This document shows, piece by piece, positions 4,952-46,017 of a stretch of DNA of 64,000 nt (position 1 is the stretch's first letter; every line of letters starts with the position of its first letter). The stretch is from the NCBI GenBank assembly GCA_001899145.1, contig MKVF01000006.1:186001-250000 (forward strand), given 5' to 3'. Both the position numbers and the translations under genes were made by a program. The notes beneath the pieces are model-generated. The model had not been told where the DNA came from. It was given only the letters and a program-made list of their open reading frames with translations, and did not search any database. Source of the DNA: Flavobacteriia bacterium 40-80. GTDB taxonomy: Bacteria; Bacteroidota; Bacteroidia; Flavobacteriales_D; Crocinitomicaceae.

Positions 4952-6376
4952 TTACATTTTTTTTGGTTTCATGCCAAGAGTTTCTGCAACTTTAAGCATG
5001 TAGCCATAAGCAGCTTCATATTCATTCGGAATCTCTCCCTCCAGAATAGCTTCTTTTATACGGCTTTTTATGATCCCTATCTCATTACAAGGTTTTAAAT
5101 CAAAAACTTCCATAATAACAGCACCCGAAACAGGTGGCTGAAAATTCCTGACATGATCTTTTTCCTCAACTTCTCTCAATTTCTGCTTTACCAGCTCAAA
5201 ATTGTTCCGGAAGCGTTTTACCTTCATTTCATTTTTAGAAGTAATATCCGCGGAACAAAGTGTCATAAGGTCATCAATATCTTCTCCCGCTTCAAAAAGC
5301 AGCCTGCGGATTGCAGCATCTGTAACATCTCCTTTTACCAGGGCGATCGGCCGTAAATGAAGCCGTACCAGCTTCTCTACATATTTCATTTTCGCGTCCA
5401 GCGGCAGCCTTAGCTTTTTGAAAATACGGTAAACCATCTTCGCTCCCACTTCCTCGTGATTATGGAATGTCCAGCCGTGCTGCGGGGAAAATCTTTTTGT
5501 ATTGGGTTTTGCAATATCGTGCAGGATAGCCGCCCAGCGCAGATACAGATTGTCTGTATTTTCAGAAATATTGTCCAAAACTTCAATCGTGTGATAAAAG
5601 TTATCCTTGTGGGATTTGCCGTCAATCGTTTCTACACCGTAAAGTCTGCACATTTCCGGGAAAAATTGCTCCAGCAATTTGGTTTTAAAAAGGTAATCCA
5701 GTCCTTTGGAAGGCTTTTTGGAAAGAATGATCTTATTCAGCTCATCTGTAATACGCTCCTGGGAAATAATTTTCAACCGTTCAGCATTTCTCAAAATGGC
5801 TTCCAGGCTCCTTTTCTCAATAGAAAATCCCAGCTGAGTAGCAAAACGGATCGCCCGCATCATTCTCAACGGATCATCAGAGTAAGTTTTATCCGGATCC
5901 AGAGGAGTTCTCATAATTCCTTTTTCCAGATCACCCAAACCGTCAAACGGGTCAATCAGGTCTCCGAAGTTATCTTTCATTAAGCTAAGGGCCAGCGCAT
6001 TGATTGTAAAATCACGTCGCAGCTGATCATCTTCAATAGTTCCGTTTTCCACTGCCGGTTTGCGGGAATTTTCAGAATATGATTCCTTCCTGGCACCCAC
6101 AAACTCCACATCAATGTCTTTATACCGGAAATGAGCCGTTCCGAAGGTTTTAAAGTAAGATACTTTCTGAACTTTCAGCTTGGTTGCAACTAAACGGGCA
6201 AATTCCAGTCCGTCTCCCACTACAACAATATCAATGTCTTTTGACGGACGGCCCAGAAAGATGTCACGAACATATCCACCTATCACATACGCCTGAAAAT
6301 CATGATCGGAAGCAATACTTTTTGCTACTTTAAAAACCGGATGCGTCAACTTTTCTGCTAAGTTCATTTTTGACAT
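4952..6376 (-). CDS. cca: CCA tRNA nucleotidyltransferase / poly(A) polymerase family with HD domain
   Basis: Adds or repairs the 3'-CCA end of tRNAs. The class II nucleotidyltransferase head carries GGYVRD (33-38), the DID metal pair (47-49) and RRDFTINAL; a C-terminal HD domain carries ILHDIAKP. Length 474 residues fits. An in-frame ATG at 6406 would lie upstream of a strong promoter whose -7 box is at 6384-6391, so the start is ATG 6376 (7 nt after the box) or ATG 6367. It is the first gene of a five-gene operon reaching to 2303. Confidence 0.93.
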   Translation of the reverse strand: MSKMNLAEKLTHPVFKVAKSIASDHDFQAYVIGGYVRDIFLGRPSKDIDIVVVGDGLEFARLVATKLKVQKVSYFKTFGTAHFRYKDIDVEFVGARKESYSENSRKPAVENGTIEDDQLRRDFTINALALSLMKDNFGDLIDPFDGLGDLEKGIMRTPLDPDKTYSDDPLRMMRAIRFATQLGFSIEKRSLEAILRNAERLKIISQERITDELNKIILSKKPSKGLDYLFKTKLLEQFFPEMCRLYGVETIDGKSHKDNFYHTIEVLDNISENTDNLYLRWAAILHDIAKPNTKRFSPQHGWTFHNHEEVGAKMVYRIFKKLRLPLDAKMKYVEKLVRLHLRPIALVKGDVTDAAIRRLLFEAGEDIDDLMTLCSADITSKNEMKVKRFRNNFELVKQKLREVEEKDHVRNFQPPVSGAVIMEVFDLKPCNEIGIIKSRIKEAILEGEIPNEYEAAYGYMLKVAETLGMKPKKM

Positions 6377-34775: not shown

Positions 34776-35177
34776 ATGAACAAAGACATCCAGGCATATC
34801 ATAACCGGCAAACACCGGAAGACAAAGCCATCTGTGATTTATTGTACCAGGAGATCTGTCAGTCTCTTCCCGAAGCGGAACATAAGATCTGGCACGCACA
34901 TCCCGTATGGTTTCTCGATGGGAATCCCGTTGCCGGTTACAGCAAACAGAAAGCAGGTATCCGGCTTATGTTCTGGAGCGGAGCAGATTTTGAAGAAGAC
35001 GAACTGAAAGTCAGAGGCGGAAAATTCAAAGACGCATCTGTTTTCTATAATTCAGTTTCCGAAATCGACACAGCAAGCTTAAAACGATGGCTGGAAAAAG
35101 CAAAATCCATACAATGGGATTATAAAAACTTAATAAAAAGAAAAGGAGTTTTGCTCCGCATAGAAAATAAGGAATAA
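34776..35177 (+). CDS. DUF1801-like protein
   Basis: A 133-residue protein with DUF1801-type features: ICDLLYQEICQSLPEAEHKIWHAHPVWFLDGNPVAGYSKQKAGIRLMFWSGADFEEDEL, and a C-terminal LKRWLEKAKSIQWDYKNLIKRKG. Intact and normal in length. It is the last intact gene before the truncated ABC-F gene. Confidence 0.82.
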   Translation: MNKDIQAYHNRQTPEDKAICDLLYQEICQSLPEAEHKIWHAHPVWFLDGNPVAGYSKQKAGIRLMFWSGADFEEDELKVRGGKFKDASVFYNSVSEIDTASLKRWLEKAKSIQWDYKNLIKRKGVLLRIENKE

Positions 35178-35340
35178 TTCATGGGCAATAAATCCTATCG
35201 TTCCTGTTAAACAGAAAAACCGTGTATTTGCACACATAAAGTAAATAAGCCCGAAATGTAAAAACTAATTTCTTTCAGACAAATCAGGACAACAACCCAA
35301 AAGCGGCTGTTGCATTGTTTAATCTCTAACGAAAGGAATT

Positions 35341-35490
35341 ATGTTGATCTTACAAAACATTTCATATACACATCCCAACAAGGAACTACTGTTCAGTGAT
35401 ATCAACCTGACAGTAAATAAGCACGAAAAAACAGCGTTAATCGGCAACAACGGACGTATTGTGTCTTATTTATTTTTCATCTTAAAATAA
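35341..35490 (+). pseudogene. ABC-F gene truncated inside Walker A
   Basis: An ATG at 35341 opens 49 codons. The first 38 or so residues read as an ABC-F N-terminus: MLILQNISYTHPNKELLFSD, then an ALIGNNG stretch (residues 32-38). The motif GNNG-x-GKST should follow, but after GNNG (ending 35454) the sequence switches to RIVSYLFF... and stops at 35490. Those last codons are the antisense of the 3' end of the SIR2 gene. The rest of the ABC-F gene is nowhere in the window. This is a broken gene whose break marks the edge of the SIR2 module at about 35455. Confidence 0.82.
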
Positions 35491-38400
35491 ATACTCACCA
35501 ATACATCATCTTTGCTTTCAATCAAACATTTTTCTAATTTAGTTGTGATGTAACCTATTTTTGAAAACCTTTTAAAAAACACTTTATCATTGAACTTTTT
35601 TAACCAATTTACATCAAATAAATCTGAATTAAAGTTCTCTGGGTCAATTATAAACTTCAAAATATCAGATTCAAGGGTATATTCTTTTAACTTTTTGCGC
35701 CCGAAATCAGAAAAATCACTTGAATATAACAAATAAAAGTAATCGAAAACAGGCTCTAATTGATAGCGATTTGCCTCATTATTGACGCTCTTAATTGTGT
35801 CATGAATTGTATTAATATATTTTTTACGTAATTTAGGTTCAACAGGAACCTTTTTTAGTAACATTCTATTAATTACTTTCATCTGAAAGTTTTTATTTAA
35901 TTCGATATTTAGCCTTTTTAAAAAATCTGCTTGTTTGTCCTTATCCAGAGAGTGATATATAATTGGTACATGAAAAGGATCTGTATTTTTGTAATCTATA
36001 ACACTTAAATCAATATCTTTATTTATATATTTCGGGTTCCTCTTAGATGTGAAATATAGAATATCAATATATAATTGATTAAAAACTCTTTTTGAATTTA
36101 ATATCTCTAAAGAAGCTTCGATTGATTCAATTGTCAAAAGAGAATTCTTTTCATTATAAAATTCAATCCAAAAATTATAATCTCTGAAAATATTACTACT
36201 ATAGATATTTGTGAATTTGAAAAACTCATTGATGTTTAAATATATCTCTTGTAGTTGATTTTGGTCAAATTTAAAATAAGCAATTACAGTACAAATGTTT
36301 TGAAATTGACGCTCAAATTTAGTTCTGAAATTAGGATTAATCTTCAGATAATTTATAAAATGATTATTTTCAAAATTTTTACCCCAAAAAGAATTAATTT
36401 CATATGTACATTTAAAGAAATTATTAATTATTACAACGATTTTCTTTTGACTTTCAACGTCTATTTCTATATCTCGCAATCCACTCTGTTTTATAAAGAT
36501 TTGCAATTCAGCAGGCTTGTCGAAGTCAATAATTTCCTTAATTAGAAAAGAATTAAATTTTTCCAATTTTGAAATACCAGAAAATCTTTTTTGGAAGTCA
36601 GTCAAATCAACATCTTTTAAAGAATAACCCAACAGAAAGGCTTTAATGGACTTCTCTTTATTGTATGCAATATTTGAAAATCCATTTCCTAAAATGAAAT
36701 TTCTACTTAAAAAGCGATTTAACTGGCCAATAATATTGTATAAGTTTGAATAATTTGAATTTTGAAAACTTCCGCCTTTTTTAGCGGATTCTATATCTTT
36801 TAATACCTTTCCATGTATATCATCCATATAATTACATAGCCATTGAATATAGACACCGTCTTTAACATTCTTTAAAAATTCAAGCTGTGATTCATCTACG
36901 TAATATTTAGTATTTGAAATTGCTTTTTCTAAATCTATTTTATCAGCTTTACTTTTTAAAGCTTCTAATTCATGTTTAGTAAATCTTGTATCAAAATTGG
37001 GAAATCGATTTAAGTTGATTTTTAACCTTTTTAAATTAAACTTACAGATGAAAGCAAGATCCATTTGTTTAAGCTTGTTGGCTTTTAATTCGATTTCTTC
37101 AAAAGCAATATAAGATTTGTAAAATTCTCCCATTTGATAAAGAACATAAGCATAAGACATATCTTCTTCAAAGTTCGAATTCTCCGTTATCCTATAAATC
37201 TCTATTCGCTCTATTATTTCCGCATATTTTAAAGCGTCATAAGAGCATTGAAAACAATCACATGAATTATTATTTGGATAATACTTATCATACAAAGCTA
37301 TTCTTTTAGTCTCTTCTGTTTTCCAATTAACTTGATTTGGATTCTTCTCCACATATTGAACTCCAGAATGTAATAAAGTAGATATTATATAATTTAATTT
37401 CGTTTTTTCGTCGTCTTTAAATGACTCATCTTCTTTTCCTTTATATTTATCAAGCAAATCGAACAATTCATAATTATCAATTGTCAAATCAGTAGTATCA
37501 AAACTATAATATGCACTTTCTCCTTTATTCGATTTTATTGGATATAGTCTTACCAAAATATGTTTTGGAATGATTCGATAATAGTCAAATCGTTTTAAAG
37601 AGGTATATAAATCATCAATCAATTTTGATTCCTGAGAAACTGAATCTATTTTGTTACGTTTATGTTCGAATGAATCAAAATCACGGATGTAAGATAATTG
37701 TTGATAAACCTTATTTCCAGTAGCTGAAAGTTTTTTGTGCTCTTCTATGTTTTTCAAAGCTTTATCAGAATAATTAATCACATTTATCCCTAAATTCTTA
37801 AAATAATCTATTTCGCTTTTGGATGTATCGTTACGATGGTTTAATAGATAAGTTCTCTGGTGATGTTTTTGTAAAATGTGTTGAATATCTCTTATTAATA
37901 TTTTTAAATTGACATCTCCTACGCCATAACCAATAAAAAGGATAATCTTGTTACTAAATAGAGATTTTACAAAGGTTTCCTTTAATGTATTGTTTTGAGA
38001 AAATTCTAAATAATCGGTTTCTTTAAAGACGATGTTTTTATTTTCAAAATCACCATGATACTTAATAATTAAATTGTTATGCTCTGCGTAGGGCAAATCC
38101 ACATCTTTTGAAACAATTGAGAAAGGTAATCCTTTATTATCTACTACATTTTCAAAGTAATTATCATAATTTGTTGTAATTATATGTTGAGGCTCTAGCT
38201 CAAGAATTAATTCATGTAGTGGATTATATTGTTTGGCATTTTTAAACAAAGTCTTTTTTACAATATCATTGTACTCTTTTTCTCCCTTTTCATTGTAGAG
38301 CATTTGTGCTATTTTCAAAGAATCGTTTTCATCAGTCGGTTCATTTAGATAACCTTTCACTTCTGTAACTAGTTCATTCCAAAGAGGAATCCCTGAATCT

Positions 38401-38495
38401 TTAGAAATCCCAGCACCAGCAAATACAACTAATCTATTATTTTTTATGGCTTCATTTATTATGGAAACCTGATTGTCAAATGTTCTTTTATCCAT
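35466..38495 (-). CDS. SIR2-domain large defence-type protein
   Basis: A 1009-residue protein. Residues 1-250 are a SIR2-type domain: AGAGISKDSGIP (26-37) for NAD binding, TTNYD (107-111, Asn109), KYHGD (145-149, His147, the expected catalytic His) and FIGYGVGD (187-194). Residues 250-1009 are mostly helical with a CDCFQC motif (412-417) and repeated TPR-like helices after it. Length and layout resemble the antiphage NADase DSR2. The gene is strikingly A/T-rich. It follows a small nuclease-like gene by 4 bp and its 3' end abuts the broken ABC-F gene. Inferred role: abortive-infection NAD depletion. Confidence 0.85.
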   Translation of the reverse strand: MDKRTFDNQVSIINEAIKNNRLVVFAGAGISKDSGIPLWNELVTEVKGYLNEPTDENDSLKIAQMLYNEKGEKEYNDIVKKTLFKNAKQYNPLHELILELEPQHIITTNYDNYFENVVDNKGLPFSIVSKDVDLPYAEHNNLIIKYHGDFENKNIVFKETDYLEFSQNNTLKETFVKSLFSNKIILFIGYGVGDVNLKILIRDIQHILQKHHQRTYLLNHRNDTSKSEIDYFKNLGINVINYSDKALKNIEEHKKLSATGNKVYQQLSYIRDFDSFEHKRNKIDSVSQESKLIDDLYTSLKRFDYYRIIPKHILVRLYPIKSNKGESAYYSFDTTDLTIDNYELFDLLDKYKGKEDESFKDDEKTKLNYIISTLLHSGVQYVEKNPNQVNWKTEETKRIALYDKYYPNNNSCDCFQCSYDALKYAEIIERIEIYRITENSNFEEDMSYAYVLYQMGEFYKSYIAFEEIELKANKLKQMDLAFICKFNLKRLKINLNRFPNFDTRFTKHELEALKSKADKIDLEKAISNTKYYVDESQLEFLKNVKDGVYIQWLCNYMDDIHGKVLKDIESAKKGGSFQNSNYSNLYNIIGQLNRFLSRNFILGNGFSNIAYNKEKSIKAFLLGYSLKDVDLTDFQKRFSGISKLEKFNSFLIKEIIDFDKPAELQIFIKQSGLRDIEIDVESQKKIVVIINNFFKCTYEINSFWGKNFENNHFINYLKINPNFRTKFERQFQNICTVIAYFKFDQNQLQEIYLNINEFFKFTNIYSSNIFRDYNFWIEFYNEKNSLLTIESIEASLEILNSKRVFNQLYIDILYFTSKRNPKYINKDIDLSVIDYKNTDPFHVPIIYHSLDKDKQADFLKRLNIELNKNFQMKVINRMLLKKVPVEPKLRKKYINTIHDTIKSVNNEANRYQLEPVFDYFYLLYSSDFSDFGRKKLKEYTLESDILKFIIDPENFNSDLFDVNWLKKFNDKVFFKRFSKIGYITTKLEKCLIESKDDVLVSIYFKMKNK

Positions 38496-38499
38496 TTCT

Positions 38500-38961
38500 T
38501 TATAATATCGGAACCTTATCTAAATTTTCTTTTGAACGGTTCAATTCTTTTAGTTTTGTTACAGAAAGACGATAGTTATATTGTCTTTCTGATGGCAAAT
38601 GCGAGAGCAGTTTATTGTATATTAAAGTTCCGCTACCGTTATAAATTTCTTCAAATGTACCATCTTGATAAAGGTTTACAGCTATAAAATAGAGAGGAAT
38701 TTCATCTAAGTTTTTTGTAAAATAAAAGTAATTGTTAAATGATGCTTTTATTTGTACTTCTTTATCAGGAGATAAGGTTACATATCCATCGTGTGTACGC
38801 GTATTATCATGGTATAGTGTTAGTCCATACTTTTCAGCTACAAGAACTTCTCCAATATCACCTACCAATTTACCATCTAAAGTAAATTTTTTGTTATGGT
38901 GCTTAAACTTGTCTTGAAGTTTTGAAATTGTAGCAAACAAAATCGTTAATTCTTCCTTCAT
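38500..38961 (-). CDS. Small DUF6998-like protein with PD-(D/E)XK-type residues
   Basis: A 153-residue protein placed first in the SIR2 operon (4 bp gap). Residues GDIGEVLVAEKYG (34-46, Glu38), THDGY (57-60, Asp58) and VQIKAS (69-74, Gln70-x-Lys72) match the E...D...(Q/E)xK spacing of restriction-endonuclease-like folds; I associate it with the DUF6998 family from memory, without a search. The N-terminal helix resembles a short coiled coil. Likely roles are recognition or cleavage of foreign nucleic acid, or regulation of the SIR2 effector. A/T-rich like its partner. Confidence 0.7.
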   Translation of the reverse strand: MKEELTILFATISKLQDKFKHHNKKFTLDGKLVGDIGEVLVAEKYGLTLYHDNTRTHDGYVTLSPDKEVQIKASFNNYFYFTKNLDEIPLYFIAVNLYQDGTFEEIYNGSGTLIYNKLLSHLPSERQYNYRLSVTKLKELNRSKENLDKVPIL

Positions 38962-38995
38962 TTTTTAGTTAAGTTGTTAGATGATAATTTAATTT

Positions 38996-39024
38996 CAAAT
39001 ATAACCATTTTCCCAATATTTCAA
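38996..39024 (-). promoter_or_regulatory. Promoter of the SIR2 module
   Basis: On the minus strand: TTG at 39024-39022, 18-nt spacer, TATATTTG at 39003-38996. Exact consensus in both elements, 34 nt before the ATG at 38961. The module carries its own Bacteroidota promoter. Confidence 0.65.
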
Positions 39025-39160
39025 TCTCAACCTTTTTATTTTCAGCACCATTACCCTATAAAACCTCCATTCCTTTATTTTCTTTCACTTCACACCATCG
39101 ACCTTAACGCTAAAAAACACAAGCAAACAAATAACATTCACAACAATCAACACTTTTTAA

Positions 39161-39168
39161 TAGCTTTG
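39161..39168 (+). promoter_or_regulatory. -7 box of the Crp/Fnr gene (TAGCTTTG), leaderless
   Basis: Exact TAnnTTTG match ending 4 nt before the ATG at 39173, so transcription would begin at or next to the start codon. Confidence 0.5.
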
Positions 39169-39172
39169 TCTT

Positions 39173-39736
39173 ATGGTGGAACTGGAACTATTCTTACTAT
39201 CATTCGGATTAAGTGAAGAAGAAATTGCTCTGATGAGCGATTTAGGTAAAGAAGAAAAACTTGCTTTCGGCAGCGAGCTTTCCAACTTCGGACACGTTGC
39301 GGAAAACTTTTATTTCGTCAAAAAAGGAATGATCCGTTCCTACCGCATTATTGACGGCGATGATTTTACCTATAATTTCTTTCTGCCGGGTGACATTTGC
39401 GTCGATCTGGAATCATACCTTAAAAAAACACCGAGCGGACTTTACATGGAAGCAGCGGCACATACCGAATTGATCCGGTGCCGGTTCTCACAGGTTGTTC
39501 CCTTGTTTGAAGAGCACCCGAGGATTCAGCGGATTGCCTTAAAAATGGCAGAAGCGGCTTATCTGAGGGTGTTGGAACGCATGAAGGAATTTCAGTCCGA
39601 CTCACTGGAACAGCGTTACCTTAATCTGATAAAAAAACATGAAGAATTATTCCGGAATGCTCCTTTACAACACATTGCCTCTTATTTAGGTGTAAAACCG
39701 CAGAGTCTGAGCAGGATCAGGGCGAAGATAAAGTGA
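39173..39736 (+). CDS. Crp/Fnr family transcriptional regulator
   Basis: A 187-residue regulator: cyclic-nucleotide-binding-type sensor fold (FGSELSNFGHVAENFYFVKKGMIRSYRIIDGDDFTYNFFLPGD), a long dimerisation helix, and a short C-terminal HTH (LQHIASYLGVKPQSLSRIRAKI). The consensus cAMP-contact residues are not evident, so the ligand may differ or be absent. It lies upstream of the TolC/HlyD/ABC-2 operon on the same strand and is a plausible regulator of it. Confidence 0.88.
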   Translation: MVELELFLLSFGLSEEEIALMSDLGKEEKLAFGSELSNFGHVAENFYFVKKGMIRSYRIIDGDDFTYNFFLPGDICVDLESYLKKTPSGLYMEAAAHTELIRCRFSQVVPLFEEHPRIQRIALKMAEAAYLRVLERMKEFQSDSLEQRYLNLIKKHEELFRNAPLQHIASYLGVKPQSLSRIRAKIK

Positions 39737-39744
39737 GATGGGGA

Positions 39745-39846
39745 GATGTTAGATTTTAGACGCTAGACAGAAGATGTTAGACGTTAGATATTAGACAGAA
39801 GACGATAGACATTAGATGCTAGATGTTAGACTTTAGACGATAGACC
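39745..39846 (+). repeat. Tandem 28-bp degenerate repeat with TTAGAC core
   Basis: Two adjacent 28-bp units at 39745-39772 and 39773-39800 differ at few positions and share GATGTTAGA at the start and TAGACAGAA at the end; a longer, looser copy runs to about 39846. Within each unit the 7-nt submotif (T/A)TAGAC(G/A) recurs every 7 bp. It lies in the intergenic gap between the Crp/Fnr gene and the efflux operon. Function unknown. Confidence 0.75.
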
Positions 39847-43949: not shown

Positions 43950-44687
43950 TTATTTCAACGCTACCCTTACTTTACTTTTTTTTAACCCTTTTCTTTGTTC
44001 TGAAATTAATTTAGGCAGTTTAATATTTAAAAAATCTTCAAATTGTTTCTCCGAAACAAATTTAAAAATTGACTCTGTTAATAGATAAACTTTTGTCTCT
44101 AATAGTTTTGGCATTTGATTATTTGAATCAGAATCCAATTTCTTTGCATTTTCATATGCCGTGCGAATTTCATAAATAAAATTTAATGGATTATAACCAC
44201 CTTTATCAAATTCTGATATTTCAAATTTAAATTCATCACATTTTTTTGATTCTGTGGAATCAAAATTATCTTTTTTATGTAGATACAACCAAACCTCAAA
44301 ACAAGGATTACTTAAAACGACATTCCAGTTTTCTTTTTCATTGCAATATTGAATTATTTCGTGTAACTGACTTATCTCCCATTTGTCAATATCCATTACA
44401 AACCATAACTCATCTTCGTCAATCAGTCCTTCCTGTTCAACATAATGAATTGCTCTATCGAGAACCCATTTTGGAGAAGATTTTGTTTCGTGCTTGTGAA
44501 ACAACTCCTCATCTAAAACTTTCTTTTCAATTACATCAACTTTTACTCTAGTAGAAAAATGCTCAAACAATTTAAAATAGTCAGGTTCGCGTTTTCCTCC
44601 CTCACAAGCGATTGCAAATAATCTGTAATCTCTAACTAATTCTTGGGGTAACTCTCTGGAATATCCTCTCTTTTTACGACTGTTCAT
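43950..44687 (-). CDS. RloB-like protein (AbiL-type)
   Basis: A protein of about 245 residues of the RloB family, with Toprim-like fold. In the frame beginning at 44693 the family marks are ACEGGKREPDYFKLF (29-43, Glu31), LWFVMDIDKWE (96-106, Asp101 and Asp103 as metal ligands) and the SNPCFEVWLYLH segment (128-139) that identifies RloB. Second gene of a pair with the ATPase, overlapping it by about 14-20 bp. RloA/RloB are known from restriction loci and as AbiL in phage abortive infection. A basic N-terminus (RKKRGY) may bind nucleic acid. Start at ATG 44687 or 44693. Confidence 0.87.
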   Translation of the reverse strand: MNSRKKRGYSRELPQELVRDYRLFAIACEGGKREPDYFKLFEHFSTRVKVDVIEKKVLDEELFHKHETKSSPKWVLDRAIHYVEQEGLIDEDELWFVMDIDKWEISQLHEIIQYCNEKENWNVVLSNPCFEVWLYLHKKDNFDSTESKKCDEFKFEISEFDKGGYNPLNFIYEIRTAYENAKKLDSDSNNQMPKLLETKVYLLTESIFKFVSEKQFEDFLNIKLPKLISEQRKGLKKSKVRVALK

Positions 44688-46017
44688 ATTCACTCCAGTT
44701 TAATTCTTCCAAATTAGCCAAAAATGGTATACCTCCAAAACGACCTTTAAGATAACCTCTCCTAATGTCTAAATCATATCTAGGCTTAAACTCGCTTAAT
44801 GAATATAATCTTGAACACTTCATTTCACTATCTTTTTCAACAAACCAAATTTCATCTTGTCTAAAAATATCTAAATCCAATAAATTTGATTCGTGTGTTG
44901 TGAATACTAATTGACCTTTCGTTTCTGGCTCATTCATTATCTTGGATATTAAAGCTTTCAATAATGCAGGATGCAAACTTTGGTCTATTTCATCAATTAT
45001 AAAAGTCATTCTCTCATTTAAAACACCACTAAGTGCAGGAATAAAATCAAGTAATCTTTGTGTTCCATCAGACTCTTCTTCTAAATCAAAAGATACAGAA
45101 TTACCATCTTTATCAATATGTTGTGACAATAATTTTTGTACTACAATATCATCATCTTCTGTCTTAGTAATAAACAAATCACAACCTTTATAATACATTA
45201 TAATACCTTCATTATCTTCTAAATCAGATAAAATTTCCTCTTTTATATCTTCATCATCTTCACCAAAATATTTATCAAAATCAAATTCCTCTATTTTCAG
45301 CTCCTCTACTCCTGTATCAAAAGTTTTCAATAAAGAATTTGAAAAGATTTTAAATTCATCTGAAACAGAAATATGAGGTGTCAAATTTTTGTATTTACTT
45401 TGAGGATGAATAATTACAATGTTTTCTAACAAAATGCCCTTAAAGTTGGTTACTATATCAAACTTAAGTTCTGAATCCTTACTCAAAAGTAACTCATTGT
45501 TTTTAAGTAAGTTTTCTTCTAATAATTCTATAAGCAATTTATTTTTTGCTGATTTTATAAACTTAGGAGCAGTTGTAATTTTTGTTTTGCCTTTTGCGAT
45601 TGAGCTTCTATGAAAAACCAACTTATCATCTTTAATATTTCCGGTTTCATATAACCACTCTTCCAAAACAATCGTTCCATCAATTTTCACTCCATAGGAA
45701 TAAAACTTATTTTCTAAGAACAATTCAATTTCAAAAAAAACTGGTTTGGATAAGTACTCTTTATCTAATTTAAATTTCTTGCTATTAATTGAAGTTTTTA
45801 TTCCACCATTTTCAACAATAGATTTAAGATATTCAATAGCTTTAATTAAATTAGACTTACCCGCACCATTTGCACCGTAAATGGCTGCAGAACGTAATAA
45901 ATTGACCGGAAAATCATACACGTGAGACTTATGAGTTTTGAAGTTACCAGCAAACATATTAAACTCTGTTTCTTCCCTAAATGAAAGAAAGTTTTCTATT
46001 ACTATTCTTGCTAACAT
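44674..46017 (-). CDS. RloA-like AAA ATPase
   Basis: A 447-residue ABC/SMC-type ATPase of the AAA_15/AAA_21 group, opening MLARIVIENFLSFREETEFNMF, with Walker A YGANGAGKS (47-55), Walker B FIIDEIDQSLHPALLKAL and the His switch QLVFTTHESNLLD. The region between (about 170-290) is the variable substrate or partner-sensing part. With RloB it forms a two-gene defence-type module, in which the ATPase probably restrains or triggers the Toprim effector. Base composition is A/T-rich like the SIR2 module and unlike the flanking small-protein blocks. Confidence 0.88.
   Translation of the reverse strand: MLARIVIENFLSFREETEFNMFAGNFKTHKSHVYDFPVNLLRSAAIYGANGAGKSNLIKAIEYLKSIVENGGIKTSINSKKFKLDKEYLSKPVFFEIELFLENKFYSYGVKIDGTIVLEEWLYETGNIKDDKLVFHRSSIAKGKTKITTAPKFIKSAKNKLLIELLEENLLKNNELLLSKDSELKFDIVTNFKGILLENIVIIHPQSKYKNLTPHISVSDEFKIFSNSLLKTFDTGVEELKIEEFDFDKYFGEDDEDIKEEILSDLEDNEGIIMYYKGCDLFITKTEDDDIVVQKLLSQHIDKDGNSVSFDLEEESDGTQRLLDFIPALSGVLNERMTFIIDEIDQSLHPALLKALISKIMNEPETKGQLVFTTHESNLLDLDIFRQDEIWFVEKDSEMKCSRLYSLSEFKPRYDLDIRRGYLKGRFGGIPFLANLEELNWSEYEQS

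Follow-up and report, generated by a model that had tools for sequence, protein, structure and literature searches.

An ABC-F gene cut after codon 38 and joined, probably by a non-homologous event, to the 3′ end of a SIR2/DUF6998 pair, and its start-stop leader as a likely translational attenuator

The window analyzed here, a stretch of 64,000 nucleotides from Flavobacteriia bacterium 40-80, carries the 5′ stub of an ABC-F gene, probably a mobile one of the ribosome-protection type, which is broken between positions 35454 and 35455 and enters a SIR2/DUF6998 gene pair of the opposite strand from the 3′ side. The remainder of the ABC-F gene is missing. The stub retains the whole control leader of the gene, which contains an upstream open reading frame (uORF) made of a start codon followed directly by a stop codon (start-stop). 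From comparison with the leaders of intact ABC-F relatives, this leader is most likely a translational attenuator. Taken as a whole, we consider it probable that the gene was cut after codon 38 by non-homologous joining and that its leader belongs to this class of switches. In this genome, the switch would now drive a dead stub only.

The translation of the ABC-F frame 35341-35454 is MLILQNISYTHPNKELLFSDINLTVNKHEKTALIGNNG, which ends with GNNG. Past 35454 the frame continues with CGT ATT GTG TCT, at the place where the relatives have one variable residue followed by GKST; in the case of the Empedobacter gene, these codons are GTT GGA AAA TCT ACT (VGKST). The DNA identity to a Cytophagales relative (L098), which amounts to 71%, stops at 35453-35454, as does the identity to Empedobacter. 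The first-pass annotation had described the frame as correct up to GNNG and followed by antisense DNA of the SIR2 3′ end, and the ends of these matches agree with it. It had also placed the antisense SIR2 stop codon 11 bp away, and this codon was indeed located at 35466-35468, 11 bases from the last ABC-F base. At the junction, the G+C content shifts from about 0.34 to 0.25. A tblastn search with the full Empedobacter protein and a sensitive search to the right of the break revealed no ABC-F remainder in the window; apart from the stub, tblastn returned one unrelated complete ABC-F gene at about 20.26-21.74 kb and nothing more. In a whole-genome search with an intact relative, no remainder was found elsewhere in the genome, which possesses several other ABC-F genes, all complete and ~30% identical. 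These searches bear out the earlier statement that the window holds no continuation of the gene. The window copy, which is 38 codons long and lacks the Walker A lysine, does not have the architecture of the NF000355 ribosome-protection ABC-F family. Its leader and stub keep the start-stop, a hairpin with 10/10 pairs, 38 clean codons and a promoter motif that differs by one base. The preservation of the start-stop, the hairpin and the codons suggests that the break is fairly recent.

Table 1. Features at the ABC-F/SIR2 locus (window coordinates; strand + or -, a point where none applies).
Feature	Position	Strand	Basis and remarks
DUF1801 gene	34776..35177	+	Pfam PF08818; on the left, the gene order shared with Taishania ends with this gene
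Left edge of ABC-F unit	35176..35210	.	35175 is the last base matching Taishania (L003) DNA, 35210 the first matching the Empedobacter plasmids
Promoter-like motif TGTATTTG	35223..35230	+	One base off TAnnTTTG; leader alignment
Start-stop uORF (ATG TAA)	35256..35261	+	Leader comparison
Arm 1, AATTTCTTTC	35267..35276	+	Complementary to the bases that precede the ABC-F ATG; uORF positions +12 to +21
Inner stem-loop of leader	35289..35313	.	Folding
Terminator-like hairpin for SIR2 transcript	35313-35289	-	Same as inner stem-loop of ABC-F leader
Arm 2, GAAAGGAATT	35331..35340	+	Ribosome-binding region of ABC-F; in the window, 10/10 pairing to arm 1
ABC-F 5′ stub	35341..35454	+	38 codons, the last being those of GNNG
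Junction	35454..35455	.	Empedobacter identity ends at 35454, last base of GNNG; pairwise alignment
SIR2_2-domain protein, 1009 aa	35466..38495	-	PF13289, 3e-22; ThsA SIR2 model, 1.4e-29, residues 10-226
DUF6998 protein	38500..38961	-	PF22522, 8.6e-37; first gene of operon
Right-edge zone of SIR2 module	39004..39160	.	Between - strand TAnnTTTG (38996-39003) and pre-Crp TAnnTTTG (39161-39168); weak evidence
Crp/Fnr-like regulator	39173..39736	+	cNMP_binding match just below cut-off; first far-side gene

In the alignment of the ABC-F leaders, the elements follow one another in a constant order: TAnnTTTG, ATG-stop, the pyrimidine-rich arm 1, a variable inner stem-loop, and the purine-rich GAAAGRAATT that abuts the ATG of ABC-F. 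The TAnnTTTG sequence, which we take to be the Bacteroidota -7 motif, is present upstream in nearly all of the relatives. An ATG-stop at -77 to -88 of ABC-F was found in 21 of the 22 complete leaders, and in 22 of 23 when Empedobacter is included. Three stop codons occur in these 22 start-stops (TAA in 10, TGA in 10, and TAG in 2), and the only exception among the 23 leaders, L161, reads ATG AAA TAA. The distance from the start-stop to arm 1 is 4-6 nt in 22 leaders, and the loop measures 46 to 57 nt. No clear Shine-Dalgarno sequence of the start-stop uORF was seen, a point against the attenuator reading set out below.

The outer stem, which would be formed by the two arms, is paired in 90.4% of cells, and two-sided changes occur in 7 of its 10 pairs across the 23 leaders. 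None of 500 shuffles reached any of the five measures, and the slid controls scored lower. Since the leaders are related by descent, the shuffles overstate the significance, and we regard the result as strong covariation support for the predicted stem, not as a formal probability. Four leaders, L157, L008, L145 and L140, reach a pairing of only 8/10, L157 in another register, which also speaks against that reading; the folding of six leaders gave z values of -2.0 to -3.6. In all fetched DNA, a start-stop together with a hairpin of at least 8 bp to the gene's own start was found at 16 of 1,046 distinct ORFs, 15 of which are these ABC-F genes. Both features were present in 0.11% of shuffled leaders; the observed rows of this shuffle test begin at the start-stop by construction, and the unbiased count is 21/22. 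A covariance model of the leader, run on 1.06 Mb of fetched loci, matched the window, L098 and two Empedobacter copies only, all of which, or near-copies of them, belonged to the model's own sequences. When run on 13 genomes, it returned the window copy and one marginal match (E 0.64). No Rfam family corresponds to the leader. In one Bacteroidales locus (L167), matches to plant miRNA families, located downstream of the ABC-F gene and scoring below their cut-offs, were ignored. Separately, the L098 locus contains a match to Acido-Lenti-1 RNA at 5307-5351, just over the gathering score (Rfam 38.3 against 37), with a weaker copy at 5119-5163.

Among the marks of a translational attenuator are a conserved short uORF upstream and a conserved hairpin that hides the ribosome-binding site, and both are present in these leaders. 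In the intact relatives, the switch would operate as follows. Without drug, arm 1 would pair to the bases preceding the ABC-F start and keep it closed. A drug that blocks initiation or peptidyl transfer would trap a ribosome on the AUG of the uORF, from where it would reach five to seven bases into arm 1; the hairpin would then open, the start would be freed, and ABC-F could be made. Ribosomes that stop on a start codon, as they do under retapamulin or tetracycline, have their front edge at +16 to +18 (PMC12121999). When the A of the uORF AUG (window 35256) is numbered +1, arm 1 is predicted to overlap the edge reported in that study. As the AUG is the only sense codon of the uORF, what is sensed would be no more than a ribosome stalled at initiation or release, and not a peptide. 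The attenuation of resistance ABC-F genes by uORFs is established in Gram-positive bacteria (PMC10201436, PMC9226507).

We lean, with modest confidence, towards the view that the resistance ABC-Fs of Bacteroidota are switched by AUG-stop, which would sense initiation- or release-trapping drugs without a leader peptide. The AUG-stop may have arisen by reduction of a uORF of the MRI type. This lead comes from three Bacteroidales loci (L165, L166 and L167), in which uORFs coding for MRIAA, MRI and MRITK lie 32-37 nt past the same promoter motif, TAnnTTTG, and 157-177 bases before the start of ABC-F homologues that are ~50% identical. If true, the proposed switch would be a peptide-free drug sensor, and it raises the question of whether a start-held ribosome whose A site contains a stop codon is sufficient to switch on a resistance gene. 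The ABC-F resistance genes of Bacteroidota would then also follow a common uORF rule, including the Empedobacter plasmid copies that have other resistance genes next to them. As the uORF finder applied to ABC-F leaders asks by default for at least three codons (PMC10219788), it would pass over an AUG-stop, and the same switch may sit unseen before other genes. In the open papers searched, we found no report of a start-stop leader of a bacterial resistance gene. As far as those open papers go, the leader is a new form of a known type of control.

The closest DNA to 35180-35456 in the plasmid collection was found in three Empedobacter plasmids, with 82.5% identity over 35210-35454. The ABC-F genes of pSE1-3-9kb and pLPY01 have the start-stop and the hairpin as in the window. 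They are intact (528 aa) and located on 10-kb plasmids, whereas the window copy is a stub on a 560-kb contig that is presumably chromosomal. In pLPY01 (L164:2001-5584), the start-stop-led ABC-F gene stands directly before estT and floR, in a resistance cluster on a small plasmid. For the putative role of these ABC-Fs in drug resistance, these neighbors are the only context. The intact relatives show the architecture with two complete ABC ATPase domains in a single chain; against the NF000355 cut-off of 380, the Taishania protein scored just above (381.6 bits) and the L098 protein just below (369.1 bits). No useful ABC-F relatives were found in the phage and viral collections.

The gene order shared with Taishania ends at 35175 and the Empedobacter plasmid similarity begins at 35210, so that the ABC-F unit is judged accessory, and everything between ~35180 and the Crp-like gene (39173) appears lineage-specific and accessory. 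Intact ABC-F genes of the same type occur in relatives. In L098, a DUF1801 gene is followed on the same strand by a small ORF and then by such an intact ABC-F gene, a single case that is consistent with the order in the window; a further relative (L059), whose DUF1801 is 78% identical, has no ABC-F gene at that site. On the right, the TAnnTTTG motif occurs 71 times in the window against 72 expected and is therefore not enriched, which means that the right edge is bounded only roughly. The Crp/Fnr-like regulator beyond it is 64% identical to a Taishania protein from a different locus. After this gene, at 39744-39800, there is a short TTAGACGTTAGAT-like repeat with many scattered matches in this genome and in related ones.

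The SIR2 and DUF6998 genes, a presumed defence pair, make up an operon of two genes on the minus strand. In the case of the SIR2 gene, no relative but itself was found at E<1e-15 in 240 family genomes or at E<1e-20 in 399 order genomes, and the family, order, phylum, viral and genome collections gave no usable relatives. Plasmid and phage matches to the protein span the SIR2 domain and do not go beyond the first third of the protein. The DUF6998 protein carries the motifs GDIGE...HDGY...VQIKAS, which are reminiscent of a PD-(D/E)XK nuclease core, and by these motifs it may be a nuclease of that kind. AlphaFold models of both proteins, made without alignments, were set aside because of a pLDDT of 34. 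With a 3′ flank of only 11 bp left, the SIR2 transcript may now be ended by the inner hairpin of the ABC-F leader, read on the opposite strand; the terminator scan found 3 candidates against 2.0 expected, which is not above chance. About 5 kb from the operon, at 43950-46017 on the minus strand, lies a second defence module, an AbiLi/AbiLii-like pair (PADLOC AbiLi 3e-85, AbiLii 1.5e-21).

The leader could also be read without any drug sensing. The ATG-stop would then serve re-initiation, ribosome standby or early termination, or would be a by-product of a conserved leader sequence, while the hairpin alone regulates, for example in response to temperature or a trans-acting factor. Start-stop sites of E. 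coli can indeed support termination-reinitiation (PMC9841429). We consider this explanation rather unlikely, as the spacing between the start-stop and the arm is nearly fixed, three different stop codons are used, and the arrangement is confined to one ABC-F family. Moreover, the Bacteroidales MRI uORFs belong to the peptide class of clostridial CplR, the uORF of which mediates drug induction (PMC10201436).

Concerning the origin of the junction, non-homologous joining is the likely cause. No direct or inverted repeats above chance and no target-site duplication join the edges; the longest direct match is 8 bp, which about half of the shuffles equal or exceed, and in this respect the earlier reading was confirmed. 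The first-pass annotation went on to propose that the remainder of the gene gave way to the SIR2 module through homology-guided exchange at the GNNG-GKST codons of Walker A. The break does lie inside Walker A, just ahead of the highly conserved GKST. The match ends, however, before GKST, the most conserved part, and nothing above chance matches resembles ABC-F in 35455-39172, so that the incoming DNA offers no partner for such an exchange. Neither was a recombinase gene found in the two-gene module nor a second junction of this kind. With no ABC-F-like DNA, no above-chance repeat and no recombinase gene, the proposal is unsupported, and we hold it to be very improbable. An assembly chimera is, if anything, slightly less credible still. 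The change in composition at the junction would fit it, but the junction lies deep within the 560-kb contig, the genome is rated at 99.7% completeness and 0.01% contamination, and the sequence across the junction is single-copy, which leaves no repeat to mislead the assembler. Within non-homologous joining, two routes are about equally likely: an insertion in which the 3′ part of ABC-F was lost, and a deletion between neighbors. In the latter, an intact ABC-F gene stood beside a convergent SIR2 operon and lost its 3′ part together with the spacer, up to 11 bp from the SIR2 stop. Such a deletion, to which we give slightly less than an even chance, yields an identical junction. It agrees with a SIR2 frame that is open to its last codon and with the 11 bp past its stop, which hold no terminator, as well as with an ABC-F unit that is accessory in its own right. 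No relative carrying both genes intact was found, though, and an insertion-replacement fits the data equally well. The ABC-F/SIR2 junction itself represents ordinary turnover within an accessory region.

The window SIR2 protein has the N-terminal SIR2 domain in common with ThsA of Thoeris and with Dsr1. The match to ThsA spans just residues 10-226 of 1009 and not the full length, and in the case of Dsr1 the score is 22 bits against a cut-off of 1400. The partner also sets it apart from SIR2 anti-phage systems: here it is DUF6998, for which no PADLOC model match was obtained. The ABC-F leader resembles the Gram-positive ones in its short uORF near the 5′ end, its hairpin hiding the ribosome-binding site, and its product, here a putative ABC-F ribosome-protection protein. 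The uORFs known there are MR[I/M] of CplR, MIN of VmlR, MK[L/Q] of VmlR2 and MAGN of LsaA, and Lmo0919/VgaL also has one (PMC10201436, PMC9226507). Those leaders code for three or four residues and also use a transcription terminator, whereas the uORF of the window type has no second sense codon. The proposed mechanism is similar to that of toiL in E. coli topAI-yjhQ, where ribosomes halted by tetracycline or retapamulin at the uORF start unfold a hairpin, so that the start downstream becomes accessible (PMC12121999). In contrast to the leader described here, toiL is a longer coding uORF, responds to several drugs at different codons, and controls a different gene in a different phylum (PMC12121999).
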